Origin: Mixia osmundae IAM 14324
Lineage: Eukaryota > Basidiomycota > Mixiomycetes > Mixiales > Mixiaceae
Direction: 5' to 3'
NCBI RefSeq assembly: GCF_000708205.1
Contig: NW_014575556.1
Coordinates: 430,267 to 494,266, forward strand
DNA length: 64,000 nt
Positions within the stretch are counted from its first letter, which is position 1. Each line of letters starts with the position of its first letter. The position numbers and the translations under genes are program-made. The notes under the pieces are model-generated. The model saw only the letters and a program-made list of their open reading frames with translations. It had not been told where the DNA came from and ran no database searches. Shown piece after piece: positions 7,220 to 47,745 of this stretch.

Positions 7220-8647
7220 ATGACGGCACTTGACTCTCTGAAGAAGTATACTACGGTGCGCACGGATGGACTGCATCCGTCCCTTTGCGTCTGCTGAACG
7301 GGCGAGGACGTTGGGACAGGTTGTCTCTGACTCGGGTGACTTTGCGAGTGAGTGCCGGCCTCGACCGTCTCGTCCCTCCTTGGCCTGACAGGCAATTCGA
7401 CTTGTAGGCATCTCGCAGTACAAGCCCCAAGATGCTACGACGAACCCGTGAGTCTGTTCGAATACGGCAAATCCTCGGAACTGACGAACTGGCTCTTTGA
7501 CGTTTGACCTGCTCAGCTCACTCATCCTCGCCGCTACTAAGAAGCCAGAGTATGCAAAGGTGCGTGCACGATCTGCTTCGTCTATTCGTATTGAGCTCAT
7601 GGCTTGTGTTAGCTCATGGACGTCGCGGTCGACTACGCTAAGCAGCACGGTGGCGATAAGGATACTCAAGTGGACGCTGCCATTGACCGTCTGGTATGCC
7701 TTCCAACGATGAGCGATTAGTCAAGGCTGACGTGTTGCTTCCCTCTGTACAGCTTGTCGAGTTCGGCAAGGAGATTCTGGCCCTGATCCCAGGCCGAGTG
7801 TCGACAGAGGTCGACGCTCGCTTCTCCTTTGACAAGGATGCGACGATCAAGAAAGCGCTGCACATCATTGACCTGTACAAAGAGATTGGCATCTCCAAAG
7901 ACCGTGTGCTCATCAAGATTGCGTCTACTTGGGAGGGCATCCAAGCCGCTCGCGAACTCGAGTCAAAGCACGACATTCACTGCAACTTGACGCTCTTGTT
8001 TGGATTTGCCCAGGCCGTCGCTTGCGCAGAGGCCAAGGTCACTCTCATTTCGCCGTTCGTCGGTCGCATTCTCGATTATTACAAGTCAGCCAAGCCCGAT
8101 GGTGACTATGACGGTGCCAAAGATCCCGGTGTCGTCTCGGTCAAGAAGATCTACAATTAGTCTGTCTCTCTCGGCTTCTGCTCAACTTCGTGCTGATACG
8201 CAATCAACAGCTACAAGCAACATGGCTACAAGACTATCGTCATGGGCGCCTCTTTCCGATCAGTCGACGAGATCAAGCAGGCAAGTCGACTCGTGTGCCC
8301 CATTCGCTCAAGACTTATCCCCTGATACAGCTCGCTGGATGTGACTTCTTGACGATCGCGCCTGCATTGCTCGAAAAGCTCAAGGCTGAAAAGGGCGACA
8401 TTGAGGAGAAGCTCAACGCATCCAAAGCGTCGAGTTCTGACCCGATCGAGAAGGTCTCCTTCGTCGACAACGAGCCCGAGTTCCGATGGGAGCTCTTGCA
8501 AGACGACATGGCCTTCACAAAGCTGCACGAGGGCATCAAGAAGTTTGCAGAGGGTCAGCTTTCGCTTCGGCTACTTCTCGTTGCACACTCATTTCCCGTT
8601 CCACAGACGCGGTCACGCTCAAGGGGATCTTGTCGGAAAAGCTATAG
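7220..8647 (+). CDS. TAL1: Transaldolase
   Basis: Nine exons: 7220-7255, 7320-7347, 7408-7447, 7517-7559, 7613-7693, 7753-8159, 8211-8280, 8331-8553, 8607-8647, giving 322 residues, the usual length for class I transaldolase. The enzyme moves a dihydroxyacetone unit between sedoheptulose-7-phosphate and glyceraldehyde-3-phosphate in the non-oxidative pentose phosphate pathway, in the cytosol. The Schiff-base lysine lies in [12 protein letters not shown] at residue 131, and the family signature QDATTNPS spans the exon 3/4 junction. Intron 7 (8281-8330) starts with GCAAGT, not GT; no GT donor keeps the frame into LAGCDFLTI. The start [12 protein letters not shown] is standard. The gene is unusually intron-rich for a small enzyme, and its stop codon is only 42 bp from the stop of the convergent dehydrogenase. 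Confidence 0.97.
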
Positions 8648-8689
8648 AGTCCGATCAAAGTACCTACAACAACGAATGCAAATGCTATC

Positions 8690-9644
8690 TCATGATCCGA
8701 TGAGGTCCTGAAGCTGCTTCCATACTATTCGGCGATTCTCAGGCGATTCGACCCAAGGATTGAGCTTGAGCTCTTTGAGTCTGTTGTTGAGATACCTCGG
8801 GCCTTCTCTGGCTTGCTCGCTCGCTGCAAGGTAGACCGGTACATCTGAGAAGTACTCTGGCGTGCTCGCTACCGTCCTTGATAGTATAGGGCGCAAGAGC
8901 TTCGCGAGCTGCACAATTGGCATTGGGAAGCCTTGGTTTGATAGCGCATCGGTGAGTACGAAGCCCGGGAAGACATGGAACCAGGCCAAGCTGGGATACT
9001 GGTTTGATCCTTCCTCTGTTATGACATCAAGCAAGACCGAATCCCTATTGCCGGAGCCAATGAGATTGCCACCGGCTTTCTTTCTCTGTATATCGTCGCC
9101 ATCAAAGTCCCTGACACCCGAGCCGGGAGCACCGACACAGACGACGGAAGAATTGAGCTTGCCTGCTTTTGCAAGCAGATAGGGCAAGCCGAAGCGAGAG
9201 AGACATTGCACGGTAAAATGAAACTCGTTACCCTCCTTGGTGAGGGATTGTCGACCATTGGGCGGGCCGCCCTGTGTCTGTACCAAGAAATCTACACCAG
9301 CTGATCCGGCTCTGGTCTCGATCTCCTGTGCAGCTGCTCGGATGCCCGTCACGAGACTGAGCCGATAAAGCAATATGAGCGGCCCAAGTCGCGTCAGACG
9401 GACTGAGAGCGTACCTCAGATCAGCCTGGACGAATCCATGGCTGCCCTTTGAATTGGCTCGAGCGCATTGAGATACGACTTGTTCGCCACGTTCTTTCGA
9501 TCTGCCGACGATGAGTACGGAAGCGCCGAGTTGGGCGAATCGGATGGCAGTTGCCGCTCCGATTCCTTGCGTACCGCCTGAAACGACGGCGGTCTTGCTG
9601 CTCAGGTTGAGTGTCGCATTGGTTGCCTTTGCGATGGCTGCCAT
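8690..9644 (-). CDS. Atypical short-chain dehydrogenase/reductase
   Basis: Two exons, 9644-9415 and 9356-8690 (58-nt intron, GTACGC donor), 298 residues starting MAAIAKATNATLN. The Rossmann nucleotide-binding loop is clear (VVSGGTQGIGAA, about residues 20-31), followed by an Arg of the NADP-type (VGRSKERG). The middle keeps the NAG-equivalent and the PG-V/T segment (FHVFPGFVLTDAL), but the usual catalytic YxxxK is not visible; in its place is a DFDGDDIQRKK stretch, as seen in a divergent fungal subgroup of the family. Substrate is therefore unknown and it may be a non-classical reductase or a binding protein. It shares a 122-bp divergent promoter with prefoldin subunit 5. Confidence 0.85.
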
Positions 9645-9766
9645 TGGGGGGAATGAAACGGCCGCTGGAGCGCTCAGGTGTAGTGGTCGATCTAGCGGGT
9701 CAGCCAGGTCTGCCAAAGCGCGTCATCAATGTCATCTCGAGGAGACCAACTATTGAAGAAGCCGTC
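9645..9766. promoter_or_regulatory. 122-bp divergent promoter, dehydrogenase / prefoldin 5
   Basis: The two ATGs face away from each other with 122 bp between them. An open frame continues upstream of the dehydrogenase ATG, but it has no earlier ATG, so the start at 9644 is preferred. No specific element is recognisable. Confidence 0.6.
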
Positions 9767-10386
9767 ATGTCTGTGCCTGTCGATCAACTCACCGTCGAAC
9801 AACTTGCCTCTGTCAGACAGCAGCTAGACCAAGTAAGCGGACCGTTCACCTTGCTCGCGAATCGCTAGAAGTTTTGGAATTCTGCAGGAGATTCAGCATC
9901 TCACTCAGTCTTTTGCTGCGCTCAAGCAAGCGGAAGCCAAGTTTAAAAGCTGCAAAGAAGCCTTGGAGTCTGTCAATGCCAACGCAGCAGGTTTGTGATT
10001 GGCACCCAATCCTTGAGCTGAACGCTCAAGTAGAGCGCTGGCCCTCAGAGAAAGACATCTTGGTGCCTCTTACGAGCTCACTCTATGTGTCCGGAAAACT
10101 CAGCGATACCTCGAACGTCATCGTAGACGTAGGTACAGGCTACTTCGTCGAAAAGGCGCGCTCCGTTGGTCTTCAAGACGCCATCTAGCTGACGAGAATC
10201 ATGCAGTCTGTCAAAGAAGCTCGAATTTTTTACAACAGCAAGGCGATGGCATTGCGCAAAAACCTCGAAGAGATACAGCCGACGATCGAACAGAAAGAAG
10301 AGAACAGACAGCTCGTCATCAATCTGCATCAGCAAAAGCTGATTTGGCAACGACAGCAAGCCGCCAAACAGGAGTCATCCTCATGA
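9767..10386 (+). CDS. GIM5: Prefoldin subun 5 (GIM5/PFDN5)
   Basis: Four exons: 9767-9832, 9888-9990, 10049-10155, 10207-10386, giving 151 residues, typical for the alpha-class subunit. Prefoldin is the hexameric cytosolic chaperone that passes nascent actin and tubulin to the chaperonin CCT. The sequence shows the two-helix coiled coil ([18 protein letters not shown] ... and [16 protein letters not shown]) around the beta-hairpin segment ([13 protein letters not shown] ... [11 protein letters not shown]). Intron 3 is best drawn with a GC donor (AAG|GCGCGC at 10156), which aligns the protein without gaps to yeast and human subunit 5. A GT donor at 10165 is possible but adds three residues. 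Confidence 0.94.
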
Positions 10387-10457
10387 GGCGGCGCAAGTCG
10401 TCGCCATAGCGTTTTGCCCTTGCCTAATGGGCTACACATTTGCATCGCGGATCTGGT

Positions 10458-11053
10458 ATGGTGATCAAGTACGCTAACATCGTGATGGCCCTGCTCTTGC
10501 TCGCGGTCGGCATCTGCACTGCTCTTGTCACACCGCAAGCCGATGCGAACACATTGGCTACACGCCAGTCGAAGTTGCTCACAGCTCCCGCTGATCAGAT
10601 CTGTGCGCTGACCAGATCTGTAATTTCCAATGGCATCATTGCTGGCGTTCAATCCCTAGGCTTCAATGGCAGCGCTTACACAAGCTGCGACGTCATCGGT
10701 TCATACGCGGTGCTGAGCTTTGACACTGCTCTACCTGTAGGCGCTGGCAGGACCGGCTTGATTCGCAAGTCTACCTTGTTCCCCGCCGCTAGTCTCAGGC
10801 CTGACGGATCTCACAGTGACGTCCCGCCGGATTCACCTTCCCTTGAAAGCGCTTGTCCATGCTTGTCCAGAGCAGCACACGCGGCGAGATCACAGGCCTC
10901 AACGCGATGAAATCGTCAGTTGTCACTCCGATCATGCTTGCACCTTCTGAAGCTGTTCGCCAACAGATTCGTCTCCGTCTCATACCTTATCTGCGGTGGC
11001 AAGACCATCCCAGTCCTCAAGTAGCCGCTGCGATTGCAGACATAGACATGTAG
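10458..11053 (+). CDS. Putative secreted protein, gene structure tentative
   Basis: From ATG 10458 the frame encodes a clear N-terminal hydrophobic signal (VIKYANIVMALLLLAVGI) followed by a soluble region containing two Cys and several small residues (SLGFNGSAYTSCDVIG). The 3' part needs splicing. One workable model ends exon 1 at about 10747 (GC donor), uses a small exon around 10797-10820 and a last exon from about 10879 ending at 11053 (SSTRGEITGLNAM ... AAAIADIDM). I do not recognise the family. The signal peptide call is good; the downstream exon choice is a guess, and reading through without splicing ends at 10910 instead. Confidence 0.4.
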
Positions 11054-11590
11054 CTCCCATGAAGCCGTTCCTTTGTCTCGCATCGCATGATAGCTCGCGC
11101 GATCCGGAAAGACACAATGGGATCCTCAATGCTCCAACCAAGGTGCTGAATATGCGCATGCATGCACGAGCGACGATCGCCCGACACGAATGATTGTGTT
11201 CGCGCAGCTACACATCTGCAAAGGCACCAGTGATCCCGTGATGAGCTGACCTCGGGACCCTTGAAGATATGTGACGAATGCAATCAGGACTACCTCGGGC
11301 TCACTGATGCTGTTCGTGTCAATGAAGTGACGCATCCAGAGGAGGAACCTGAGAGTTCACAAAGGCGACCTCGTAGGGCAGAGTTTGCCAGAAATCGTTA
11401 AAATCTGAGCAGACCCCAGAGCCATTTTCGGGATATCGAAAGAAAGGTCTTGCCATGCCGTGACTGCGATACATTGCTACTGGATTGCATGATTCGGACA
11501 ACTCTGCGACGCTCGAGAGAGATCAGACCTTCGTAGATCTTGATAAGCAACGGAGCGGAAGGTGCCGTGTCTTCAGCTAGCAAGAAGCTT
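11054..11590. other. Gene-free stretch
   Basis: About 540 bp between the tentative secreted-protein gene and the right repeat arm. Only short overlapping open frames on both strands without family features. Nothing else seen. Confidence 0.5.
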
Positions 11591-13117
11591 GAGCAAGCTC
11601 TCGCTCAGCGGTCAGCCTTGGCCTGTGGTGCGTGCCGTGTCGGCGATTTGCGCCGGCGCGGACAGATTCTGAAGACGTGAGCTTCTCGTCGAGTCTCCAC
11701 CATGCATTGGTCTTTCTGCTGTTTGCATCGGTCAATGAGCTGCATCGATGTAGCCTTGACGATGGCCTCCAAGTCAAGTCTGGCTCGATCGCTCGCTAGC
11801 TGCCAATGACTGTGTCATGCGATCGTATCCGTCCGGAGACTGTGTGCCCTCGTTCGATGCTCAACGACCCAGCGACCTCTTCTCAATGCTGTCGCCCTAG
11901 CGCATACGCATCTCGCGCCTTGAGCATCGCATTCAGCATCGCGGGCAGCTGCGACACTGAATGCATGGACGGTCATTCGGTGCAACACGCCGACGCAGCA
12001 GCACCCTATCGGCGACCATGATGATGACGCAATGGCTCCATGTGGCTTCAATATTCACTCCCATTCCCGGCTACAGCTACACCGCTTCGAGAGGATCATG
12101 TCGATCACGAAGGTGTGCGACCTCGGCGCGTTCCCCAAAAGTCGCGCCATCAGCCGCCGCATCTGTCAAGGCTTAGGCAGACTCGCGCAACGACACATCC
12201 ATACCTACTTTGCTGGACCAGTACGCGACAAGTATGGCATGCCGGACTTGAGTGAGCGAACCCATCGAGCATCCCGGCCCGACACCTGAGATCAGTCACT
12301 GCGACTGCGACCAGATCGACTTTCGAGGCGCAAGGCTGAGCGATGGCGTATTACGTGCGTGCAGCGCCGCCGTTCTTCGACGTATCTCCCCTTCCGCCTG
12401 TACGGCAGCGTCGCGAACGACACGGCAGCGCTTATGATGACTGGGGAGATGAGCGAAACCTCGGACTAAGTCTTGACGACTACCGCACAGGACGCTCGCT
12501 CTTGGTCGACATAACCTCCTCCAGCCCTACAGCGCAAGCTAGCTCGCTTATGTCAATATCAGCAGCCACAGTCGCCACAGCCGGCTTCGAGCGCGCCTTG
12601 CAGGCAGCGCCTTTGTTTCGTCTTCCTGCAGAGATGTTGCGACATATTTTCGTCGAAGCTGGCAAAGCCGACGTACGCGACGCTGTGGCTCTATCGCAAG
12701 CCTGCGTACACCTCAGACAACTTGCGCAGGACGACCTCATCTGGCTAAGCATGCTACCANACCCGCGTGCACTCCGCCNGGAGAATCATCAGACTTGGCG
12801 CGAGATCGCGATTGGCCAGCTCTCACGCTATTGCACGGGATGTCAGAGGCCGTGCAATCCACCCATCTTCGCCAGGCTTGATTCGCGCCTTCCTCACGGC
12901 TTCGTCGGAGGGTTTTGCCGCGAATGCTTCAACTCCGCGACAGCTGCAACACAACTCACTAGGCGTCCAGCCGAGCACACGCGCATTTACTGGCTTGCTC
13001 GCGAAGAGCGCTACGGACGCTGCTACACGGCCAGTGAACGACGCAATGACGCTTTCCAGAGACATGTAGATCTTTTCCGCGTCGCGCCCGGTCAGCCTGT
13101 CTCGTCCACTCTCGACC
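11591..13117. repeat. Right arm of the inverted repeat
   Basis: Reverse-complement match to 1-1528. It begins abruptly at 11591 and its outer limit cannot be judged because the left arm is cut by the window edge at the base matching 13117. Ambiguous N bases occur in this arm and just beyond it, which suggests that reads from the two copies were partly mixed in assembly. Confidence 0.93.
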
Positions 13118-13326
13118 ANACTGACCGTTGGGCAGAGCTCTGGCATGTCAATATAATGAAGCCATCAGACATGCCTTCCTGGTGCAGTCTGCCTTTTCAA
13201 CGCCTCTGTCGAGCCTACCTTTTCNATTCTACTGCCAACGCCGTCCATTTAGACACAATCTTACAGGCTAGAGAAGGCTCGCTCAGCTCAGATCCCCCTG
13301 CAGACTTTGCGCTGATCAGCGTCTAG
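12343..13326 (+). CDS. F-box protein with Cys-rich segment
   Basis: Single exon of 327 codons with an in-frame TGA immediately upstream of the ATG. The F-box lies at about residues 89-140: LFRLPAEMLRHIFVEAG, then the helix ALSQACVHLRQLAQDDLIW. This is the Skp1-binding part of an SCF ubiquitin ligase adaptor. Just after it, CTGC and CREC, about 30 residues apart, could bind one zinc ion. The C-terminal half shows no leucine-rich, WD or Kelch repeats, so the substrate-binding mode is unknown. Four codons contain N bases, so single residues are uncertain. A near-identical copy faces it at the left window edge. Confidence 0.8.
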   Translation: MAYYVRAAPPFFDVSPLPPVRQRRERHGSAYDDWGDERNLGLSLDDYRTGRSLLVDITSSSPTAQASSLMSISAATVATAGFERALQAAPLFRLPAEMLRHIFVEAGKADVRDAVALSQACVHLRQLAQDDLIWLSMLPXPRALRXENHQTWREIAIGQLSRYCTGCQRPCNPPIFARLDSRLPHGFVGGFCRECFNSATAATQLTRRPAEHTRIYWLAREERYGRCYTASERRNDAFQRHVDLFRVAPGQPVSSTLDXTDRWAELWHVNIMKPSDMPSWCSLPFQRLCRAYLFXSTANAVHLDTILQAREGSLSSDPPADFALISV

Positions 13327-14345
13327 TAGTTCTGCAGCGTCGCTGGATCGAATTTCGGTGGTGGATCCTTGGGAACTCGTGGACACACCTTCGCGCGACG
13401 CGTCGGTTGCGAAGGCAGCAAGACGAGGACGACCGGACCACTGATCTGACGGTCATCGCATTAGGGACGGACGATCGACCAAATCTGTGGCAAAATCATG
13501 CAGAGGCCGATGAGCAGCGCCCTCATCTGAACGTCAAGAAGCTCGGTGTCGCCCTGAACAAAGCCGAGATGAAAGTACTCTCCCGCACCTTTGGTCGACC
13601 ATCACTGCAGAAGGGCGACCCTGACTACACGTACGATTTGACANATATNATCCTGAGGAATCGCAATGACCAGCTCCCCCTGGAGACGCAAGTCGACCTT
13701 GTTCCCAGTTGGCTCGCTCTGACTTCGCNNGCCGGCGACTGCGGATGCGTCCGCCGCCGCTGCACCAATAGCAGCACCCCAGGTTGTATATGTTGCCTCT
13801 GCAGTGAACATTGTACGGCTCTCGACCGACAATATTTGCGGGTTGACGAACCCTGCCCGGTCCATCCTCAAGGAGACAACGTCAGAAGCTCAGCCCTAGC
13901 CACGAGCGAACTTGTTCCGGCCGCTTCGAGATGAGCCATGCTACACTGCAGCGACCGTCCGCGTTCGCAGTCAGCATCTCCAAATCGCAGTGCTGGCAAC
14001 GCTGCAAAGATCACTCAGCGACTCAGGCACGGCGAAGTGTGACGTTCGGTCATTTCTTCACGCAGCTCAATCCATTGTACCCCATAGCAAGTATCGCGAC
14101 GTTCTTCCGCGTGAATGGCCCTTGCTGTGATCTGCATTGAGGCCGCGATNNNAAGCCGCTCGGNAGANTAGNCTCATGCAGGCGGCACGTCAGCAGGCCC
14201 TATGCCGCCCAAGTTGACGAGATGGTCGAGATGGGAAGGATCGACCTGCTGCCATGCAAAGAACTGATCTTGACCTTGACTCGTTAGGACAGATCTACGA
14301 ACCACAGATCAGTCCCTGCCGTTTCATAGCAGATATGACCGTCAC
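13327..14345. other. No confident gene; low-quality sequence
   Basis: About 1 kb with several N bases (13644-13730, 14150-14172). A plus-strand frame of 175 codons at 13407-13934 and a minus-strand frame at 13602-13871 overlap each other; neither shows a family motif, signal peptide or clean splice pattern. Either could be a degraded gene. Nothing else is recognisable. Confidence 0.4.
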
Positions 14346-15290
14346 TTACTCGAAAAAGTGACTTTCCGATAGGAAGAGATCAAGTGGGTCATTGCCAACG
14401 GTAGTACCTTGACCATTGTTGGCAGAGGCAAAGGCAGAAGGCGTGTGCGTGCCAGATAGGTGACCGCTTCGATTGGTGGGTGCAGTATAGCTATAAGACG
14501 AAGTAGGCAGCGGCTGGTTGAGAGGCATCGTTGGTGAAACAGCAGCGGGCGCCAGGGTGACGTCAGAGTGGTCGCTTGCGCCTGTCAAACCAGGCTGATG
14601 CGCGGCGTTGATCTCACTGCCAAACTTTGGCAGACTACCTCCAAGCTGACCTGTCTCCATGGCTCGCCAGGATGCCAACAAGACGCGCAACATGATATGG
14701 GCAGTGCCGGCAGCATGCCGCGCATCGGTGGTCGCATTTTGACAATCTGTGATGGTCTGGACGACCGCTCGGTGTAGATCGTCAGAAACTAAGCGTGACT
14801 TGGAGACTTTGACTTTGATCAAGAATACGGCAGCATAGACGACGATGACCCTGCTGTATACGCGATTCGGAGTGATGTCGAGTCCCCAGTATAGTAGAGC
14901 TGTACTACGTTGGCCGGCTGGGCATGGCGGGGGAAGGCGTGAACGAATGCCCGGCGCGCGACTTGTGTGTGGGTCGAATGAGCAGGCCGGGGCAACGGTC
15001 CATCGCACATGCTGACTTGCTCTCCTTTGCATGGCAGCACCGGCGCTTCCTGGTATCACCCCNTGATTGACAGTCGGCTGTATGCCGCCTTCATGGGCCT
15101 TACGATACCCATCTNCGCCATCTGCAATATCGTGAGACTGACAGTTTCCGAGCATGGCAGCACTTGGACGATATTCGAGGTCCTCCCCCCAGTCGTGCAA
15201 GTGATCATAGAATCGCTTCCACAGGACCTCTTTCTCGCCCGTCGCGAATGCATCATAGTCCTGGCCCTACAGGCCTCGTCGTCCGAAGAT
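14346..15290 (-). pseudogene. Remnant of a fungal zinc-cluster-type transcription factor (C-terminal part)
   Basis: The minus strand carries pieces that resemble, in the right order, the middle and C-terminal regulatory domain of Zn2Cys6 regulators: VLWKRFYDHLHDW with LEYRPSAAMLGN, then PANVVQLYYTG, then VVYAAVFLIKVKVSKS, RAVVQTITDCQNA and HIMLRVLLASWRA, ending in a Ser/Thr/Asn-rich tail. The pieces lie in at least two frames, and no Cys6 zinc cluster was found upstream to about 16.5 kb. N bases at 15063 and 15115 mean that some frame changes could be sequencing error or missed introns. I read it as a decayed or poorly sequenced gene; confidence in the family is moderate. Confidence 0.45.
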
Positions 15291-16573
15291 TGCCAGGTAT
15301 CGGCTGAGCATCGACTTGACTTTCCCTTGCGAACAGCTTTTGAGGAAGGTGCAACTTTTCCGGGGGCCTGTATACCCCAAATTCCACGCGCCAGCGGCCG
15401 ATGTGGGACATGTGGGGGTCAGCGCGGCTTGCAGCTTGCGGCGCTGGCATGCAGCCCTTGCTAGTCGCTGCACCATGCTCTGCGTCACTCCCTGCGCATG
15501 TCTGAGCTCTAAGCTGAACAGTATAATGCCTTCGATCGCATCCTTCCACGAACTGAGACGTGTGCCATGCAATCTCAACAAACCTGAGTACGAGCCGCTT
15601 TCACTTCTACTTTACATGTTACGCTCAGTATATTGCTCAAAGTGCATCGTATACACATGATGCTTCAGGCCAGAACTAGCGGTGTCTCTCGGTGGCCTTT
15701 GGAGACAGGCAGAGGCTTTGTTCCTATCTACTGCGCAGAGAGTCTGCTCGGGCTCAACCATCTAGTTGCCACTCACTCAGCCGCTACACGGTGCGCTATC
15801 GCTGCAACGGAGGCCCACGCTATGAGTGCATATGATACTTGCATCGCGCTGCGCTACATCAGGACAGGGTACCGGGATGTAGCCCTGGCGACTGCGATCG
15901 CTTGCGCCATCGTCCTTCTCTGATTCTTCTGCCACACCTGGCTCGTTAGCTATGCTTCCCATGATCGCACAGCATCTGTCGGTTAAACTGCGCTGTCAAT
16001 CTTAGCTGAAGTTCTGATTGGCCACTGTCGAGCAGCCTCGGACCTGTAGACGGCCGCTGTGCGTGGCAAGCTATCCCGCGCTCTTAGATACATCGGCGGC
16101 TTGATTCTGGGCGATGCACCTGCATCGATACCGCGTGTGAGCGTTGAAGATGGGCTGCCGAGACAGAAGAACGGGACTGACAGTTTACCGATCGTAAGAC
16201 CAGCTGCGGTGTCGATTTTTACCCAGCTCGATATCACCAAGGCTGACTATCGTCGGGTGATTTTGCTCGAAGTCTGTACTCATTTCGGGGGGCAATTGCA
16301 ACTCATAGGCCCATCCGACCCTCAGGAGACATGACGACCCGCTGTCGTTTCTACAATGGGCCTAGCATCAGACATGAAAGCGTCGGTTTGGCTGCCTACC
16401 GCGTACATCACATGCTCCGACGCAGCCTGGCCTAGTACATATGCCTCGTTTCGCGACATATCGCCGCTGTTGCAGTCTTGCTCGGTGATGTGACCGCGCT
16501 ACAAGGCTGCCTGCTCCGCTCTCCTCACCTTTTGACATTGCCCAAGTACGGCAATTCGACGAGCGCAAGATTA
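15291..16573. other. No confident gene
   Basis: About 1.3 kb. Minus-strand frames at 15253-15581 might hold further upstream pieces of the transcription factor remnant, but there is no diagnostic motif. Plus-strand frames around 15633-16334 look random in composition. No RNA gene seen. Confidence 0.4.
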
Positions 16574-17055
16574 ATGACATCGAGCATGAGCATCTCTACT
16601 AGCGCTGTCGCATCAGGAATCGCAATTTCCGCCGTTCGTGCGGCCTTCGCTGCGCCTAGCGCCAGTGCGGTCAGTCTCGCCAACGGCAATGTGGCGACCA
16701 AGGCGGCCCTCCAGGCGCCCATCCAAAACTCTTGCTCTCTTGAAGTTCCAGGCAGATTCATCAAAGTCAAGCTGAACAGCTCTCAGGAATGACGCCTGGC
16801 ACGAGATACACGTAATTTCATCGCATGCAGTCGTCATTGGACCGCTGAGTACCGAGCCGGGCGAATCGCTTTCTCAAAAAACGTGGGACTTCGCGCCAGC
16901 GTACGTGCAGACTACCTTATTAGGACACAGTCACGACTGCAAGCGCTTCCATGTATTGGACCCTGCACTCGAGTGCCCACACCGGTCGTATCACAGGCTA
17001 CGCTCTCTCGTTGGAGCATGTCTGTGTCAGCGTCTGCAGGTCCCTCAGGAGCTGA
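16574..17055 (+). pseudogene. Broken paralogue of the secreted protein at 17245
   Basis: Starts with a signal-like segment (MSISTSAVASGIAIS, ATG 16574 or 16586). It then shows, in the same order as the intact downstream gene, NSCSLEVPGRFIKVKLNSS (compare LICTLKISYIPVEIDLSDF), AWHEIHVISS (compare SWHSLKLSFP) and HTGRITGYALSLEHV ending VCR (compare NAGHLTGYSLPGVLV ending YCR). These parts occupy three reading frames, and I find no GT or GC intron that would join them. This is best explained as a tandem duplicate that has decayed. It is a host gene of unknown function. Confidence 0.5.
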
Positions 17056-17244
17056 TCAAGCAGACTGCAGTGTTGGTGCGCTCGAGTGCGAAGGCTTGCC
17101 TATTCCCCGCGTCAATGCCAATCTGCCAAAGTAGCCAATGCAACCGGACCCTGCTCCAGTGATCCCATCCTACGCGTCGCGATGTGTCACTGGCGAGGAT
17201 GGACAAAATCCCAAATCCATGCTATACCGATCATTGCTACGCCA

Positions 17245-17700
17245 ATGAAGCTCGCTCATGCCGCAATCGCAGTCGCTGGTCCGATGTTTTCATCGTTTGT
17301 TAGAAGCGTGGGCGCGCAAGAAGAGGTCGTTGTCAAGCGTGTTGGCGACGGTGTTTACGCAGATGGCAATCTGATCTGCACGCTCAAGATCAGCTACATT
17401 CCTGTCGAGATCGACTTGTCGGACTTCTCGAATGAGTCGTGGCACAGCCTCAAGCTCAGCTTTCCTGCCGGAACGACACATCTCGAGAGTACCAAACCGG
17501 GTCATTCCACGTGGACATGTAAGCGTACATTTCTCTCCGACACAGAAGAGTCTACTGATGAGGAGCATACAGTCGAGCTGACAGATCATCCCGGTACACA
17601 TTCTCTGAGCGTCACGAATTCGAATGCTGGTCATTTGACGGGATACTCCTTGCCTGGCGTGTTGGTCACCTTTCCGCCGGCGTACTGTCGCACGCGCTGA
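17245..17700 (+). CDS. Small secreted protein, function unknown
   Basis: 151 codons in one exon. MKLAHAAIAVAGPMFSSFV forms a signal peptide with likely cleavage after VGAQ. The mature part is beta-rich in pattern, contains three Cys (LICTL, WTCKR, AYCRTR), and ends at the third Cys plus three residues. Polar and acidic segments (SDTEESTDEEH) suggest a soluble extracellular protein. No enzyme motif is visible and I do not recognise the family. It sits directly after a decayed tandem paralogue, which is common for fast-evolving secreted proteins of plant-associated fungi; that ecological reading is inference. Confidence 0.65.
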   Translation: MKLAHAAIAVAGPMFSSFVRSVGAQEEVVVKRVGDGVYADGNLICTLKISYIPVEIDLSDFSNESWHSLKLSFPAGTTHLESTKPGHSTWTCKRTFLSDTEESTDEEHTVELTDHPGTHSLSVTNSNAGHLTGYSLPGVLVTFPPAYCRTR

Positions 17701-22882: not shown

Positions 22883-22977
22883 ACCTTGCCCATCATCGAA
22901 ACCGTCACACATTACCGCGGGCGATTGTCTCTTGTATCGATTGCATGACGGCTCACAGTTGCATAGCGAAAGACATG

Positions 22978-35579: not shown

Positions 35580-36536
35580 ATGTCAGAACGCAAGGTGCTG
35601 AACAAGTACTATCCGCCCGACTTTGATCCAGCGGCGATCCAGCGACGGCGTGGACTCGGGCCGAGGCAGCAAGTCGTCCGCCTGATGGCTCCCTTCAGTA
35701 TGCGCTGCAACTCATGCGGCGAGTACATCTACAAAGGCAAAAAGTTCAATGCTCGCAAGGAGGACTCCAAGGAGACTTACTACAGCATCAAGATCTACCG
35801 GTTCTACATCAAATGTACCCGCTGTTCTGCCGAGATCACCTTCAAGACGGATCCCAAGAATACAGACTATCAGGCAGAACACGGCGCCTCACGTAATTTC
35901 GAGCCTTGGCGAGAGGAGACGGACACGGAGCCCATCGACAAGCTCGCAAGGCTGGAGGAAGAGGAGAACAATCCCATGGCAGAGCTTGAGAACAAGACGG
36001 TAGACGCAAAACGAGAGATGGAGATCCTCGACCAGCTGCAGGAGATCAGGACGCGAAACGCTCGCTTTGAGCGGACAAAGCTAGATGAGGAACGAGTACT
36101 TCAGACAGTCAGCTCACGCGTCGATACCGTCGACGACGAGGCTCTTGCTAAGTCTGCACTCGATGACGAACAGAGAAGGCAAGAAGAGGAAGACGAGGAA
36201 CAAGTCAGACGAATCTTTGCGCGAGGCGCAGTGCCGTCCATTGAACTCAATGAGACACCCACAGCAGATCCTGCTGCCCCTCTTGCCGGTCCCTCAGGAA
36301 CGACACCCGACGAAGAGGATGCGGACGAAGGCCTCATCTTGCCACCCAAGCCGAAGCCAGAGATCGTCGTCAAACGAAAGCTGGATCTGATCGAGCCAGA
36401 TGCGCAGACGCTACTCTCAAGTGATGCACGGGCCTTTGTGGCCAAAGTCGACTTTAGCGCCAGGCCGGTACTGAAGAAGAAGCAAAAGGGTCCCAATGCC
36501 ATGGCGGCCAAGCTAGGCATCAAACTCAACAAGTGA
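35580..36536 (+). CDS. YJU2: Splicing factor YJU2/CWC16 (CCDC94)
   Basis: Single exon, 318 residues, ATG directly followed by the family start [19 protein letters not shown]2 joins the activated spliceosome with the Prp19-associated proteins and promotes the first step of splicing. The four-Cys zinc site is intact ([10 protein letters not shown] near residue 42 and [10 protein letters not shown] near 79), with [10 protein letters not shown] and RFYIKC between. The acidic-basic coiled-coil tail ([17 protein letters not shown]) is typical. It is notable as one of the few intron-less genes here. It converges with the homeodomain gene. Confidence 0.97.
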
Positions 36537-36771
36537 GTGACCGGCAAACCGTCGACGCAATGAGGCTGTAGCGCTGCAAAAATGGTGTTGTTGGTATGTA
36601 CAACACGCATTACAATTTATGGTACTATACATCTAGTCGCTGCGGTTTGCGATTGGTAGTGATCGCTACAGTATGCGAGTTGCTTACGTGGTGGCGCGAA
36701 TAGCGCCCGATCATCTTCAGGTATTCTCTACAAACGATTTGCTGGTGCAGACGTTGCGCACTGTGAGCATA

Positions 36772-38084: not shown

Positions 38085-38894
38085 CTTGACCCTTTTGGCT
38101 TCAGGTCCCTCTCTTGCGAGGGTGAAACGCCTCAAACGCGAGCCTTGGCGGCAATTAGTCCTCTTATCGTTGCGTGACAGGTACGATCGCTCGAGATTGC
38201 GTCGTTATGGGCAACTTATAGGGTGCAGGATCTGAAAGTGCGCAAAGCGTCGTCAAGTCATGGTGTGAAGGGCAGTGTCGATGCGTGCGGGCGAGGCAGG
38301 CTATGTCTGGTAGATTGATGTTCTCAAGCACTCCATCGAGGCGTCTGTGCACTCTTTTAATTCTTGCTTACTGTGAGATCGACTCTTTGGCGCCGGAGAA
38401 AGGCGTGTGCGTACGAATGAGTGTTGGGTGTATCGTGCGGCGGTGACAAGATTGAGGGCGGCACTGGTACCGGCTTGGGCGTTTATGCGATTCTGTTGTT
38501 GAAGCGAAGGAGAGCAGGTCTGTCGAAAAGGTGAGATCTGGCAGTTCCTGAAGGAAGGAGTGGATTGGGATGGAAAGGCGAATGACTGCGTCTGCGCACA
38601 TCGCGAGATGACTCAATAACAGAGCCAGGGGCTCCCAAATCGAATTGTCGATGTTCAGATTCCGCATTATCTGAGGATCGGCCACTCTTTGCCACTTCTG
38701 GCACGTGGAACGCGCGTTTTCGGGCGAGCATCAGCCAAGGCATCGCGCGCGCTAGGAGCAGTGCAGGCAAAAGTCAGCCTCGAGCCGGACAAAAGGGCAT
38801 CGCACTCTGGAATGCACTCGAAGGACGTGAAAAGTCTCGTTGACAAAAAGAACGCTTTAAGGTGGTGGATGGGATCGTCCGAGCCGGATACGCT
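38085..38894. other. Promoter region of the homeodomain gene and SAR1 3' side
   Basis: 810 bp between the homeodomain ATG and the SAR1 stop, both on the minus strand. No gene or element can be defended. Open frames at 38164-38770 (-) look like chance. Confidence 0.5.
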
Positions 38895-40040
<1,146 letters not shown>

Positions 40041-40130
40041 CTTGAGCAAAGGGCGCCTCTCTGCCTCGACGATGGGCTGTCGGCAGCGCGTCCACCAAAA
40101 AAAAATAAAAGGCGACGGCCATCAACGACG
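40041..40130. promoter_or_regulatory. 90-bp divergent promoter SAR1 / MTO1
   Basis: Only 90 bp separate the two annotated ATGs. It contains an A-rich run (about 40096-40110) that could exclude nucleosomes and serve both genes. If MTO1 starts at a later ATG (40164 or 40267), the region is up to 226 bp. Confidence 0.55.
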
Positions 40131-42556
40131 ATGAGTCTCTGTCCACATCCAGCATGCCGATCCATGGCATTGCATACCCTCAGACGAGTCGAAGCTCGCG
40201 CCAAATCGCCGCCTAGCGACTCACTTCGCCTGATTTCGTCTATTGCAAGTTCCAGGCCCAAGAGCAATGCAGAGCGCCTTTCGAGCCGTAGGTCAGCATG
40301 GCCGCCTCGTTTGCACGACCAACAACGCTTTTTGGCTACGCAAGTATCTGGAAATTCACTTGAACCGGCCGCCGGAGGGATGCATACCAATGCAGACCAA
40401 GCAGAGGACGATTTCGATGTGGTCATCATCGGCGGAGGCCACGCAGGCTGTGAAGCAGCTGCAGGCTCGGCTAGAGTAGGCGCACGAACACTGCTACTCA
40501 CACAGAGACTCGACACGATTGGCGCGCTCAGTTGTAATCCGTCCATTGGCGGGATAGGCAAGGGAACGCTCGTGCGCGAAATCGATGCTCTCGATGGCCT
40601 CATTGGTCGTCTGGCCGGTCCGTCCCTGATGCTGTAAGCTTACATCAGGCTTAGGCAGACTGACGTGTTGGCAGATAAATCGGCCGTACAGTTCAGAGTA
40701 CTCAACAGATCAAAGGGTCCCGCCGTACATGGACCGCGAGCTCAGATCTCAAGAACGCTCTACAAGCAGCACATGCAAGAGACCCTCAACGCCTATTCCA
40801 ATTTATCACTTCGGGCCGGTAGCGTCGATGACTTGATACTCGACGCGCCCACTCGACCAGGATCAGCAGGTCGCGTTATTGGCTTACGATTAGGTTCGCT
40901 CCAACGGGTAGCCAGCAGATCTCTGCTGATACTTGTAGTCGAGGATAGAGACTGGTGAAGTTATCAGGACCAGGCATATCGTCATCTCGACGGGCACTTT
41001 CCTGGGCGGCCATGTACACATTGGTCTCGAATCGACACCTTTTGGCAGGTTGGGCGAAAGAGCATCCAATGCGCTCTCTGATTCACTTCGCCAAGCTGGT
41101 TTCGCACTGTCGAGACTGAAAACGGGCACACCTCCTCGGATCGACGGACGGACAGTCAACACTGCCATACTGGGCCGTCAAGATGGCGAACGACCTGCTA
41201 CGCCGTTCTCGTACCTCTCTGAAGGGCCCCTACCCAATGAAGATCGACAGCTACCTTGTTGGCAGACACAGACAACGCTAGCGTCGCACGCGCTCATAGA
41301 AGCAAATCTAGACAAGACTATTCACATTCGAGAGGAAGTCAACGGGCCGAGATACTGCCCCTCGCTCGAATCCAAAGTCGTTCGATTCAGGTCGAAGAAC
41401 CATCACGTCGTCTGGCTGGAGCCGGAAGGTTACGATACGGATACGGTCTATCCCAATGGTCTTTCGATGACTGTGCCTGCCGACGTGCAGGAAGCTGTAC
41501 TCAAGACGATTCCAGGATTGGAGAATGTCACGATGACTCAACCTGGGTATGGCGTAGAATATGATCATGTCGACCCAAGGGAGCTTAATCGTGAGTCTCC
41601 TTCATTCCACGGATCATCTTCGTAGCTCGAAGGCTGGCTTGCAGGCACACTCGAGACAAAGAAGATACAGGGTCTGTTCCTTGCCGGACAAATCAACGGA
41701 ACGACGGGCTACGAAGAAGCCGCAGCGCAGGGCATCGTGGCAGGCATCAATGCCGGTTTATCTGCCGCCCGTGCGCCACCTCTGCTCCTGTCTCGAACGG
41801 ACAGCTACATCGGCGTACTCATTGACGATCTGACGACGCAAGGCGCTTCGGAACCTTATCGCATGTTCACGAGCCGAAGCGAATATCGTCTCTTCCTCCG
41901 CGCGGACAATGCCGACAAGCGGCTGACCGAGAAAGGTATGTCTCCTGGTTCTCGCTGAATTCTGCTCATTGTGAGATAGGATCCCTCGCGGGTTGTGTCT
42001 CTGCCAGTCGATACCATCATTACTGTGCTGAACAGAAAAGCATCGACGAGTGTATCGAGATGCTACAATCTATCGAGCTGTCGCCACACAGATGGACAGA
42101 CCTCGGCTTGCCCGTTCGTCTAGACGGCACATCACGCAGCGCTTTCGACGTTCTACGCCACCAAGGCTCGACGCTGCCACTGCTCACCACAGCACTTCCC
42201 CAGATGATACAATATTCGCCTCGTGTGCTCGCAAGGGTGGCCATCGAAGCAAAGTACAAGCCTCATCTCACTCGTCAATCTGCCGATGTGGACGCTTTCA
42301 TCAAAGACGAACATATCTCGCTGGCCGACCGAGTCGACTACGATCAGATCCACGGCCTGAGTACAGAGGCCCGCCAGCAACTCTCTCGCTATCGACCCGC
42401 AACTCTGGTCAGGCTCTAGTTCTCCCACAATGTGACGCTGGCTAATGGACGAAGCAGGCCGCAGCTAAGCGTATGGCTGGCGTGACCTCTGCGAGTGCCA
42501 TGGCCATACTGCGCTACGTCCGTAGCGGCCGCTCGACCGTTGAAGCTGCTTTGTAG
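40131..42556 (+). CDS. MTO1: MTO1/GidA mitochondrial tRNA wobble-uridine modification enzyme
   Basis: Six exons: 40131-40617, 40675-40893, 40949-41590, 41645-41935, 41980-42407, 42458-42556, 721 residues. With Mss1, Mto1 installs the carboxymethylaminomethyl group on wobble uridine of mitochondrial tRNAs, using FAD. Visible: FAD-binding [15 protein letters not shown] (about residue 94), the GidA signature [75 protein letters not shown], and the C-terminal helical part ending [12 protein letters not shown]. The first about 85 residues are Arg/Ser-rich, consistent with a mitochondrial presequence, but the exact start is uncertain: ATGs at 40131, 40164, or a short exon at 40267 (MQSAFRA) are all possible. 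Confidence 0.94.
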
Positions 42557-42695
42557 GCATACATGCAAGCGCGGTACTACAACAATACGAAGCCCAACGT
42601 GATCTCATGAGCTCTTTATCTTCGCCAACTGAGGGTTCTGCCTTTGCCAGCTGCTTGCCAGTTCAGATGAGACGGTATGCATGGAGTGCGGGAGC

Positions 42696-43212
42696 TTACT
42701 CATATGCGCGATAGAGCTGGTATCCGCCCGTTGCGCCCACGAAGAAATTGACCTGCTCACTGATGATAAGTAGACGCGATAGAGTTGGGTGACCATGCTT
42801 ACAGCTGCTAGAGAGTAGTTGACTGGGGTGATGACCAAGCTGTACCTCACCCAGATTGCGCCCGTGAGCATCAAGGCTATCGTGCAAGTATGAGTTCCTC
42901 AGCTCGTGGAGACGGGCCGTTGGGACTTGCCTGCGTTTTGAGGTATGGACAGCTTCTCGGCAGGCCGCGATAGATCCTTGAGACCAGCAATGACGAGACA
43001 CCTGCGTGAGGCATTCATTGTCAGCATGCGAGCGGCTGATGGCATGCGACACTCGCCATTTCATGAGAGGTGCATAGAAGAATATGGTCCTGCAGGCAAC
43101 CAGAGGGCTCTTAGCGCAGGCGGTCTGAGCTCGGCACTGAAGCCTACTTGGGACCCGCGGGATGATTCATGAAAGCTGATAGCTTGCTCGTCGTGGCAGG
43201 TGCTGCTGACAT
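42696..43212 (-). CDS. MPC2: Mitochondrial pyruvate carrier subunit, MPC2 type
   Basis: Five exons: 43212-43148, 43089-43057, 43001-42931, 42876-42803, 42752-42696, 99 residues. It forms a heterodimer with MPC1 in the inner mitochondrial membrane and imports pyruvate. Family landmarks: AFMNHPAGPKTIFFYAPLMKW, CLVIAGLKDLSRPAEKLS, TGAIWVRYSLVITPVNYSL and NFFVGATGGYQLYR. Intron 2 (43002-43056, GCGAGT) and intron 3 (42877-42930, GCAAGT) begin with GC. Intron 3 has no frame-keeping GT alternative; intron 2 has one (GTCGCA) that would add two residues in a conserved stretch. ATG 43212 gives MSAAPATTSKLS, a usual short N-terminus. It is convergent with MTO1 and divergent from ILV6. Confidence 0.95.
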
Positions 43213-43325
43213 GGCTTGACGGTGTGCGACAGCGGCGTCGCGCGAAACAGCTGCAAAGGCATTTTTCTGCTCCACGAGGCCACAAGCCGGCCAACTGACT
43301 CGGACCCTGACTGCACTTCCTCAAC
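43213..43325. promoter_or_regulatory. 113-bp divergent promoter MPC2 / ILV6
   Basis: The ATGs of the pyruvate carrier subunit and of the acetolactate synthase regulatory subunit are 113 bp apart on opposite strands. It contains CTGACTCGGACCCTGACTG near 43295; the TGACTC core matches the Gcn4/CPC1 binding site known from yeast and filamentous fungi, so amino-acid control is plausible but unproven. Confidence 0.5.
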
Positions 43326-44676
43326 ATGAAGAGAGCAGCAAGAGCTCTGCCGGGTGCATGGCGAGCACAGCACGTCCCGGCGACCAGAGGCAAGGCTACT
43401 CTACGCTTTGCAGCAAGATCAGCCCCATTCAGCTCCTCGGCAGCTCATCAGAGAGCTCAGCATGACGAGCCTACCGCACCGGGCAAACCTACCAAGCCAG
43501 TACAGAGTGCCACGAGTGCACTGGACTACAAGATGTCGCACCCTGCCAAGAGACCGCCGCGTCTGCCGACAATTGATCCACCTAAGTGGTCAGCCGAGGA
43601 AGCAGTGACTAACATCTTGTACAACAGCAAGTCGGGCCAGACAGAGCTCATGTCGAGATACTGATGGTTTGCTTGTTGCAGCACCGCCACCCAGCAATCA
43701 GCCGTTCGTACGACACGTGCTCAATTGCCTCGTTCAAAACGAGCCAGGCGTTTTATCGCGCGTCTCTGGCATTCTTGCCGCTCGTGGATTCAAGTGCGTT
43801 GCGAAGGTCTTGCGTACTCTGTGCGAGGACTCACCGTCTTCTCGATGCGCAGCATTGACTCGCTTGTCGTCTGCGCAACAGAGATCAAAGATCTCTCGAG
43901 AATGTGTATCGTTCTCAGAGGTCAAGATGGCGTCATAGAACAAGCCAGACGGCAACTCGAAGATCTCGTCAGCTTGATCTCTTCCCCTCCCGCCACTCTC
44001 GCTGACAGTCTTCATCGTGTGCGCAGGTACCCGTCTGGGCAGTCTTGGACTATACCCGCACAAAGACCATCGAGCGAGAGCTCTTGCTCTGTAAAGTGTC
44101 GATCCTCGGCCCCGAATATTTCGAAGACCAGCTCAGACACAAGATACAAGAGGGCGCTTCTTCACCCCATGCTGCCTCACAAGAAGGCGAAGCCACCAGT
44201 CCCGATCATGCAAGCGGAGGCGATCCAGGCTTAGCCATTCAGTCTGAGATCCACAGACAATACGATGCCGAGCATCACGCACAAGGATACGCAACGCCTA
44301 CTTTCGAATCTCTCTCGCCTTCGGAAGCGCTCAGACAGAAGCACGCTCATATGTCTGCCATTGCTTTGCTCGCCTCCCAATTCCAAGGCAAGATTGTTGA
44401 TATCAGCAATGACGCTGCCGTCGTCGAGGTATCCGGCAAGACTGAACGAATAGACGCTTTCCTCAAGCTCATCCGACCCTATGGTGTCCTCGAAGCTGCT
44501 CGAACAGGCAAGCCTCGCATTGCAAGCTCAGCATTTCATGGCTGATGTGCGAGAACGCAGGGACGATGGTGATGCCGAGGGCGCCCATCATCAGTCAATG
44601 GAGTGGCATGTCAGATGAGGAACCCTTGGAAGAGGAGACGGTTCAGATTGACGCGAGTCAGCTCCCACCGGGCTAA
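43326..44676 (+). CDS. ILV6: Acetolactate synthase regulatory (small) subunit
   Basis: Five exons: 43326-43626, 43682-43793, 43853-43967, 44027-44507, 44561-44676, 374 residues. Ilv6 activates Ilv2 and gives it valine feedback inhibition in mitochondrial branched-chain amino-acid synthesis. The N-terminus (MKRAARALPGAWRAQ) is presequence-like. The ACT domain is clear: VRHVLNCLVQNEPGVLSRV, GILAARGFNIDSLVV, LSRMCIVLRGQDGV. Later landmarks are VPVWAVLDYT, ERELLLCKVSILGPEY and GVLEAARTGTMVMPRAPI. Introns 1 (43627-43681, GCAAGT) and 4 (44508-44560, GCAAGC) start with GC, and neither can be replaced by a GT donor without losing conserved residues. Without splicing intron 4 the protein would lose the ARTGTMVMPR end that is typical of the family. 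Confidence 0.96.
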
Positions 44677-45105
44677 GCGTGCACCATGTAGCATCAGCAA
44701 TGCAACGTTGATCAGCCAAAAGCTTCTTAGATCCGACTAAAGCTGGTCAAAAGCGGATGCGAGGAGCCAGGAGAGTCAGAGAGCGACTGTTGCGGAACGT
44801 CGGATAAGCGAACCATCACCAGAACCACGATTGACCACGACCAGCGCGGCTGTATGCGAGCGATGATATTATGTCAACAACACGTATCATTGCAAAACCT
44901 GAGCTGATCGTGAGGTAGAGGTGGACCTCTGTTGCGGCACAAGCCATACGATTGCCTGGCCTGTTGCCAGGACAGAGCCACGCAGCCTTTCGCCTGTGTG
45001 TCTTGCGTTCACTTGTGTTCTGTAATTGTGCGCCACGGCAAGCCAATCGGGCGAGTGTTGGGGTTGTAGGTAGCTGTCGAGGATCAAATTTGACATCATG
45101 ACAGT
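44677..45105. other. Convergent intergenic region
   Basis: 429 bp between the stop codons of ILV6 and the STB6-like gene. Probably 3' leaders. No gene or RNA feature seen. Confidence 0.55.
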
Positions 45106-47745
45106 CTAGTAGTCCGCAGGCGGTGAGACGACAACTGTGGGCTGAATGATAGAGCCGCCTGGAAATGTCGGGGGCGGCGTGGGAACAGATCTGCCAAAGA
45201 AAGCATAGAGGTGAGCTTTGGCATCTGCGATCTTCTCGATCATCGTGCGAGCTTGGGGCGACGGGAGCTTCTCGGACATCGAGCGCAAGTGATGCTGCAT
45301 TGTGCCTCGGTCTCCCGCACGCTCCTGCATCCTGCGTAAAAAGGCTAATCAGCAGTTGGAGAACAGCGGACGGCGACAAGCTTGCCGATCACGGAAGGAC
45401 TCGATGTCTGCTTTCTTGTCCGTCAAGATGGCAGAGGCATAACGAAGTCGCTCGTTACCGACTGATAGCGTAGCGATGGCGCTGTTACTCGTAAAAACAC
45501 TGCGCATCATCTCGATAGCCTTGCGCGCCTCTTCCTCCAGCGACTCGATCGCTTCGCGTCGCCGCGTCAAAGCAAGCTCGAAGGATTGTATCGCCTCGCC
45601 GTACGACTTGTCGATCGCCTGCGGGCATAATGAGCTCTGATGAGCCGAAGCAACGCAATAGCATGCCTCTAGACCCTCGATAATGGTCTGCATCTCAAGC
45701 TCCTTAGCACGTAGCTCCGTGTAGCCATGTTGCAGATCTATATCGAGCTTCATGCTATGTGGCGACATCGTCCGGCCTACACCATTGAGCTCACAGAGAT
45801 GCGAAAGCGAATGACGTCGGGTCAAGTCAGACGCAGTACTGGTCTCTTTTGTTGGCAGATCGCTGTAGGACGTAGCAAAGTACTGATATGCCTCGGTGTC
45901 GCCATCTGTCAATGCACGAGATAGCACGGGTGCTCGCGGCCTCTCATCTTCTTGCTGCTCGGAATCTCGCTTGGCCTGACTGTCTGATGCCGTCATCACA
46001 TGTGCTGCACCTGCAGACTATCAGACACATGTTGGCCGAAGTGCGTATTGCTCACCAGCAGGATCTTGATGGGTTGTATGCGGACTAGGTCCTCGCGAAT
46101 GGTCTGCATTCGAGGCAAAGGCCCGAGCTGTGCGATCGTGGAAGCCTCGCAAGACTCGTCCCGGTAGGCGGTGCGCTGCTTCGGCATCCGTATCGCTCGT
46201 CGCATCATTCGAGGTATATCCATCCTTTGCCGAAAGATGAGCGGTCGACCCTCGACCATGTCGGTGTAATCCGATTCGTACTGTTCTGCTTGTGCGCTTG
46301 TGATGTTGTCGTCTCTTAGCAGCCGTTGTAGACCAGAGGCTGGCAAGCGTGAAGACCTCCGACCACGCCCCTTGATTGAGTGATCGTGCAGCGAGATCGA
46401 GATCGAAGGTGCCATCCTCAATGTTCTCAGCAGCATTGCGAGCTGCACCTGGGTCCGTCCGTGACAATGGGTTGAGCCCGCGATCGGCTATATCATCGAT
46501 CCGGTTACGCAGCATTTTACCGACTCGCATTGATTCTGCTTTCCGGTCATCGACAGTCCGCTTCAGTGCGGCTATGCCTGGCGGAGTAAGGTACAGAAGC
46601 TGATGAGCGTGGCTGACTTGTGCACCTTGATGCCCAAGTGCTTGTATCGTCAGGGTATACGTAGAGAGGAAGCGATGGCGAGAGACAAAAGGATCTTTCG
46701 GCGGATGTGCATAGCCTAGCGCATGGACTTTAGCCCGAACAGACGCCACGATTGTCAGAAGACCAGCAAGGGTCGAAGGTGTCATTATTTGGGAGCTGGA
46801 AGTAAGACCAGCGGGTGCAGTCTGCGCAGATGAAGCTGGATTTGATGTTGCTTGCTGATTGAAGATGTCATTCCATTCTGCAAGACCTGCGATCGTTTCT
46901 TCACAGAGCAGTCCATCGGGCGCGAGCTGGTCGATGCCTTCATTCGGCAGCGCCTGATGGTGCGAGAGCGAGTGCTTTTGCGGAGGCACGAGGGGGCCCA
47001 GGCCAAAAAGCGCGAGCGCGCATTGTACGATCGCGATCACGTCGAGCAGCTTGTTCTCTAGCTCTTGAACACTAGCCAAGGAGTATGGCAGCCGATAGAG
47101 CTGCGCGAACCGCTCAAGTTGTGCTGTCGCAGGTGGGGTGAGCGATAGACTGGATCGCCCGCCCAGTCCAAGTCGCCTGAGCGCTAAGTTCTGATAGAGC
47201 GTGTCCCTTATCTGCTGCGTCACCTGTCCGCCTGGTATGGACACAAGCGAGCGATCGCCTTGTAGATTGGCCAGCGAGGTCACGAAGATCAATCCAAGCG
47301 ACGTTTGCTTGGGCCGCCCGCCTTCACTTCTGAGCGAGGACTCGAGATCGCTCATACCATCTGAGCGAGTCTCAGTCGGCTCGAGTACATCCACAGAGAT
47401 GACATCGTCTGTCCCGCCCGTGTAGACCACCAAACCAGGTGTGAGGCGCTGGCGGTCGACGAGCCATTGCTCAACGCAGTAGACCTGAAAGCCAGCGAGC
47501 CTGATGCCCGTCTTGACGACGCTATAGTCGTGTATGAGCGCATTGACTCGTCTTGATCGAGGCTGCGGAACATGCTCCTTGCTCTGTGAAGCAGCGCCGG
47601 TGGAAGAGGTTGTCGATGATCCGCCATAGAGATGTAAGGCCGAAGTGGACGAGGCAGGTGAGAAGACAGCAGACGGGGCCTCATCATCTGCCGCTTGCAG
47701 GCTGTCCAAGACACCTGTAGGCAGCAGGATCCGCTCTGACTTCAT
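45106..47745 (-). CDS. STB6/STB2-like protein
   Basis: Four exons: 47745-46357, 46280-46056, 46017-45386, 45331-45106, 823 residues. Yeast Stb2 and Stb6 bind the Sin3 repressor complex. The conserved N-terminal part is recognisable: GFQVYCVEQWLVDRQR, VVYTGGTDDVISVDVLEP, then a long helical region (RRLGLGGRSSLSLTPPA, HGY-like HALGYAHPPKDPF). The C-terminal half is coiled-coil-rich (ELRAKELEMQTIIEGLEACY, RREAIESLEEEARKAIEMM). Intron 3 (45332-45385) has a GC donor (GCAAGC) as the only frame-keeping choice into MQERAGDRGTM. Introns 1 (76 nt, donor GTCTTC) and 2 (38 nt) are less certain. Whether it works with Sin3 here is unknown; the family name is the safe part of the call. Confidence 0.72.

Follow-up and report, generated by a model that had tools for sequence, protein, structure and literature searches.

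Introns that start with GC instead of GT are known to be abundant in a few algae. GC-AG introns make up 39.6% of the introns in Aureococcus anophagefferens and 22.2% in Micromonas pusilla, the genomes having 69.5% and 65.9% GC, respectively, and a canonical U1 is reported for both species (PMC3033335). For Emiliania huxleyi, with a 65% GC genome, 241 curated junctions are described, 56% of them being GC-AG and 4% having GA donors (PMC4028052). Fungi are given an average of 98.7% GT-AG (PMC7072748), and Ganoderma lingzhi is listed with 1.85% GC-AG (PMC11590231). We have analyzed the splice donors of the basidiomycete Mixia osmundae IAM 14324 (Pucciniomycotina), the assembly of which comprises 13.51 Mb in 19 contigs. 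A first-pass annotation of one stretch of 64,000 nucleotides (C8:430267-494266, called the window in the following) had placed nine GC donors among about 66 introns. Judged from the sequence, about one Mixia intron in five appears to begin with GC rather than with GT.

The GC share was determined in a sample of 264 kb out of 13.5 Mb, consisting of the window, C1:200001-300000 and C2:200001-300000 with GC contents of 0.558, 0.558, and 0.546 (55-56% overall). The same 264 kb served as training set for a self-trained gene model with terms for coding, donor, branch, length, and acceptor, an AG acceptor being imposed. In the equal-prior test GT and one other dinucleotide received the same prior, and the margin of a call is the loss of the best path, in nats, when that donor is forbidden; apart from GT and GC there are 14 dinucleotides, five of which were used as decoys. 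For the coding term of this model, and of the model used for comparing intron properties, the training exons came from a run allowing GC. With a margin above 4, which retains 62 of 206 GC and 222 of 458 GT introns, the decoys reached 5 (GA), 1 (GG), 11 (TC), 6 (CC), and 5 (AT); with a margin above 5 there were 39 GC and 165 GT introns, and 3, 0, 5, 0, and 2 decoys in the same order. At cut-offs from 2 to 8 nats the GC share is 18.1-20.5% when the mean decoy is subtracted and 16.7-19.4% when the largest decoy is subtracted. Split by stretch (margin above 4), the window has 15 GC and 40 GT introns, C1 has 20 and 90, and C2 has 27 and 92, confirming that the abundance of GC-AG introns extends beyond the window. 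The suggestion of the first-pass annotation that GC introns are unusually common is thus borne out, our 18-20% lying above its 9 of 66 (14%), and also in the C1 and C2 samples the share does not come near one percent.

In a low-prior test, a GT-trained model was run in which each of the 15 non-GT dinucleotides had the same low prior q, so that all 14 possible decoys were included. At q=0.01 GC was picked 32 times and the runner-up TC eight times; at q=0.003 the numbers were 18 for GC and at most 3 for any other non-GT dinucleotide, and at q=0.03 GC had 47 and GA 16 calls. Eleven further loci (33 kb) gave seven GC and 25 GT introns at a margin above 4, with three GA, three TC, one AT, and no GG or CC decoys, a result that points in the same direction as the 264-kb sample but is small. 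The raw GC counts of separate runs (150 of 659, 167 of 675, and 129 of 665) are not taken as an estimate because self-training inflates rare classes. When every non-GT call was converted to GT and the model was retrained, there was one GC call in round one and none thereafter; this manipulation plants GT at the very sites in question and is therefore only a mild control.

Individual junctions bear out the GC donors. All nine bases listed by the first-pass annotation indeed carry a GC donor, and each of these introns is backed either by a protein alignment without a gap at the junction or by a published gene model with the same splicing (Table 1). Six of the junctions, those of transaldolase, prefoldin 5, SAR1, and MPC2, align to solved homologues with no gap at the junction, and a Rhodosporidiobolus ILV6 protein aligns ungapped across both GC junctions of ILV6. 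When the published proteins, which are from the same strain, were matched to the window by exact splicing, with GT being preferred wherever possible, two of the four introns of ILV6 (E5Q_01801) and two of the three introns of the STB6-like gene (E5Q_01800) still had to start with GC, and these GC introns end with AG. The matching also revealed a tenth GC intron which had not been listed before; if it is retained, the frame of the STB6-like gene stays open.

Table 1. GC-AG introns in the window (positions within the window; donor hexamer in transcript direction)
Intron	Position	Strand	Donor	Support
Transaldolase GC-AG intron	8281..8330	+	GCAAGT	ungapped at junction against solved yeast transaldolase
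Prefoldin subunit 5 GC-AG intron	10156..10206	+	GCGCGC	ungapped against solved prefoldin 5
SAR1 GC-AG intron	39404..39461	-	GCGAGT	ungapped at junction against yeast SAR1
SAR1 GC-AG intron	39258..39311	-	GCGCGT	ungapped at junction against yeast SAR1
MPC2 GC-AG intron	43002..43056	-	GCGAGT	ungapped against human-type MPC2 chain
MPC2 GC-AG intron	42877..42930	-	GCAAGT	ungapped against MPC2 chain
ILV6 GC-AG intron	43627..43681	+	GCAAGT	exact spliced match, published E5Q_01801; homologue alignment
ILV6 GC-AG intron	44508..44560	+	GCAAGC	exact spliced match, published E5Q_01801; homologue alignment
STB6-like GC-AG intron	45332..45385	-	GCAAGC	exact spliced match, published E5Q_01800
STB6-like GC-AG intron (tenth, absent from the first-pass list)	45619..45666	-	GCATGC (48 nucleotides)	exact spliced match, published E5Q_01800

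For the E5Q gene models, AUGUSTUS was run with parameters of Ustilago together with 34,962,178 RNA-seq reads that had been aligned; the text of that report mentions 148 genes with alternative splicing forms but nowhere uses the words "intron" or "splice" (PMC3376729). According to another paper, AUGUSTUS does not recognise GC-AG introns on its own (PMC5677156), and therefore the GC introns of E5Q_01801 and E5Q_01800 probably rest on reads. We also enumerated GT alternatives for the nine introns, allowing donor and acceptor to move within 45 nucleotides and requiring that the frame is kept without a stop. A GT donor with +5G is available in five cases (transaldolase, prefoldin 5, SAR1 39461, ILV6 43627, and the STB6-like gene), each printed alternative altering the protein by at least two residues, and within these limits none was found for the other four. 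The division into six introns without and three with a GT alternative proposed before was therefore not reproduced exactly. Of the two genes named as free of GC introns, MTO1 has none in the model either (0 of 6); for the TAG1-like gene the raw model made three candidate GC calls of 12.

Outside the window, three GC junctions in ARP6 fit the homologue and the published protein, the predicted ARP6 being identical over 410 of 410 residues to the start of L969DRAFT_604578 (Mixia osmundae IAM 14324). Three GC junctions in RAN, one of which requires a shift of the acceptor by 15 nucleotides, two in the adenosine kinase gene and one in CCT7 likewise fit their homologues; DBP8 was judged by eye only. 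Together with the window genes, 19 GC junctions in ten genes are supported by homologues or published models, and the same GC introns are used by two published annotation sets. These ten genes had been picked for having GC calls, so their GC ratio is no estimate of the share.

The introns of Mixia are about 53 nucleotides long and have a CTSAY branch motif, mostly a CAG acceptor and a near-invariant +5G. At a margin above 4, GC and GT introns have median lengths of 53.5 and 53 nucleotides, and their branch motifs look alike by eye. They differ around the donor. AA at +3/+4 is found in 24 of 62 GC introns (39%) versus 29 of 222 GT introns (13%, p=2.5e-5), and AG precedes the donor at -2/-1 in 25 of 62 versus 51 of 222 (p=0.009). 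The mean pairing with U1 outside +1/+2 is accordingly 3.86 for GC and 3.43 for GT introns (p=0.0017). A stronger consensus around the donor is typical of U2-type GC-AG introns, and the Mixia GC introns conform to this type by having a GC donor with an AG acceptor, a conserved +5G (61 of 62), and a stronger donor-flank consensus than the GT introns. No difference between the 62 GC and the 222 GT introns was detectable in +5G, in the pyrimidine at +6, in local GC content, or in the fraction of introns with a length of 3n (23 of 62 versus 68 of 222, p=0.36). Position +6 is C or T in 57 of 62 GC introns (28 C, 29 T) and in 204 of 222 GT introns (90 C, 114 T), purines being rare, and purines at +2 stay at the decoy level in the equal-prior test. 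Intron bodies have a C/(C+T) ratio of 0.54, compared with 0.45 at +6 and about 0.19 at +2. An excess of genes with several GC introns was not observed: same-gene pairs gave permutation p values of 0.12, 0.17, and 0.70 at three cut-offs, so that the clustering of GC introns in some genes noted by the first-pass annotation did not hold up.

A change in the splicing machinery would be looked for in U1 in particular. Searching the genome for U1 with Rfam returned no match, and U1 was located by a 10-mer search instead. Two identical copies are present, at C4:1086418-1086591 (+), corresponding to L028:1501-1674, and at C4:1110569-1110742 (-), corresponding to L029:1337-1510. They are oppositely oriented with some 24 kb between them, have a TATA-like box upstream and a CAUUGCAC motif, and match the Rfam model over its full length with 32.8 bits, which is under the gathering score of 69.5. 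Both have the canonical 5′ end AUACUUACCU, with A7 kept opposite +2. A variant U1 with a changed base opposite +2 was considered and is rejected, since both copies are canonical. The exact 11-mer ATACTTACCTG occurs at three genomic places, which are coding by appearance. Pattern searches for the U1 loop and the Sm site yielded no useful match, and no further similar U1 copy was found in the genome, where a strongly diverged copy could escape the search. Position 11 of the Mixia U1 is U instead of G, and the stretch at the expected Sm site reads GCAAUACUUCCUAC, unlike the usual Sm site motif AAUUUUUGG. U6 is found with 80.3 bits and has an intact ACAGAGA, the U1C zinc finger reads normally by eye, and SNRNP27 (PF08648) is present and looks ordinary. 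PF05971 (the METTL16 family) has two matches, one of 26.4 bits, which exceeds the cut-off, and one below it. The U1C gene itself appears to hold a GC-AG intron (GCAAGT) within the part coding for the zinc finger (C1, minus strand, L036 ~1490-1798), as seen by eye in comparison with U1C sequence. A U1-type zinc finger (PF06220, 30.3 bits) is also encoded by another gene, on C7 (L035 ~1422-2623), which is not U1C according to its remaining sequence.

As a local observation apart from the introns, the window has two predicted genes with a near-identical start (MAYYVRA...) at 1-775 and 12343-13899, likely a local duplicate pair, and 13 of the 17 N letters of the window fall within the second copy or close to it (12760-14172).

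We consider it probable that the GC introns are GC-AG introns of the ordinary U2 type and that selection against C at their +2 position is unusually weak. U1 would tolerate the mismatch between A7 and C(+2) where the remaining duplex is good, the mismatch being paid for by better pairing at -2/-1 and +3/+4 and by the strength of the other intron signals. Selection against C at +2 would in consequence be weak, and GC sites could accumulate by mutation and drift without having a function of their own. In a simple mutation-selection-drift equilibrium with C/(C+T)=0.54, a share of 19% corresponds to a scaled selection for T at +2 of about 1.6 and a share of 1% to about 4.8. The earlier proposal of relaxed or altered recognition of the 5′ splice site thus stands in its first half, as recognition is relaxed at +2, with a share about 10-20 times the fungal norm also in the C1 and C2 samples; its second half, as far as U1 pairing is concerned, is not supported by the U1 letters, the intact U6 and the normal U1C finger. 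Several points weigh against our reading. Self-training inflates rare classes: the strongest decoy, TC, still reaches 11 at a margin above 4, and it rises from 8 to 46 when all 16 dinucleotides are left free. In the 33 kb of further loci GA and TC reach three each versus seven for GC, and two of the 11 loci are partly duplicates sharing about half their sequence. Two GC calls of the model in the window are counted as false or doubtful, one at 43413, which stays unspliced in the published ILV6 protein, and one at 35648, where a YJU2/CWC16-like splicing-factor gene (named by eye) is open through the call. GC splicing was judged from the DNA, from homologues and from published models, and the trans-acting side is hardly covered by the letters of U1 and U6, the U1C finger, and SNRNP27. 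Moreover, a mismatch tolerated at +2 would not by itself predict that +6 is confined to pyrimidines, with C and T about equally frequent. The inflation of TC and the two dubious calls also speak for the rival view that most GC calls are artefacts of the gene model or of sequence errors, the true share being near the fungal norm. So does the result at a margin above 0, where the decoys swamp the test and the share drops to 12.0% with the mean and to 2.8% with the largest decoy. We regard this as very improbable, given the 19 supported junctions, the stability of the decoy-subtracted share over cut-offs from 2 to 8, and the agreement of two published annotation sets.

The behavior of +6, which is nearly free between C and T yet avoids purines, leaves room for a reading of both +2 and +6 as any pyrimidine. 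Such a donor code G-Y-N-N-G-Y could stem from a trans-acting change, that is a modification of A7 and A3 of U1 or an altered U1 snRNP protein, U6 or Prp8, and modification or proteins have been suggested by Iwata and Gotoh for the GC-rich cases (PMC3033335). The purines at +2, being at the decoy level, would also agree with it. On the other hand the U1 and U6 letters, the U1C finger, and SNRNP27 look ordinary, +2 is far from having equal C and T, and the GC donors need better pairing elsewhere, suggesting that C at +2 is still worse than U. We therefore think that a trans-acting change of this kind is unlikely, and slightly more so in the specific form that the Mixia spliceosome reads pyrimidine rather than U at both positions through modified U1 A7/A3 or a changed U1 snRNP protein, GYNNGY being the true donor code. 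The first-pass annotation had also raised the idea that the weak introns form a regulated class; in that case they would be subject to retention or alternative splicing in certain conditions. GC donors are indeed described as enriched in alternatively spliced genes of mammals, nematode, and Arabidopsis (PMC3488318), and the intron at 45666 can be retained without closing the frame. This idea finds little correspondence in our data and seems to us quite improbable: the Mixia GC donors are stronger, not weaker, outside +2, lengths, 3n fraction, +5G, +6 pyrimidine, and local GC content are indistinguishable from those of GT introns, clustering in genes is not significant, the genes that carry the GC introns include housekeeping ones like RAN, CCT7, and SAR1, and no more than 148 genes have alternative forms in the published annotation (PMC3376729).

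With Mixia, the question of what tolerates C at +2 becomes testable in a fungus with a small genome, which could help to reveal how a spliceosome copes with such donors. For annotation the consequence is practical, as gene finders restricted to GT-AG would break or shift many Mixia genes. In the literature covered by our search, shares this large are reported only for algae of very high GC content, in which base composition is held responsible and the mechanism was termed an enigma; a fungus with a GC-AG share near that of Mixia was not found by this search, per-species supplementary tables being outside it. The combination of about 56% GC and a canonical U1 in a fungus indicates that such a share does not require extreme composition and is not caused by the U1 letters.

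With 18-20% in the sampled 264 kb, Mixia lies above a GC-AG share of about 10%, as do the GC-AG-rich algae, without the genome GC content of at least 65% which the three algae have in common and which was proposed there as the cause. Like Aureococcus and Micromonas pusilla it has a GC-AG share far above 1% and a U1 5′ end that is canonical at the donor-pairing bases; unlike these GC-rich algae it is a fungus of 55-56% GC in the sample, and its U1 has U at position 11, where both algae have G. Like in Emiliania huxleyi, GC donors with AG acceptors are very common, but in Mixia they are a minority and GA stays at the decoy level, whereas in the alga GC is the majority and GA reaches 4%. As in other fungi the GC-donor introns are of the U2 type, while their share is about 10-20 times higher. 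To sum up, Mixia joins the known GC-AG-rich lineages and is unusual among them as a fungus of moderate GC content.

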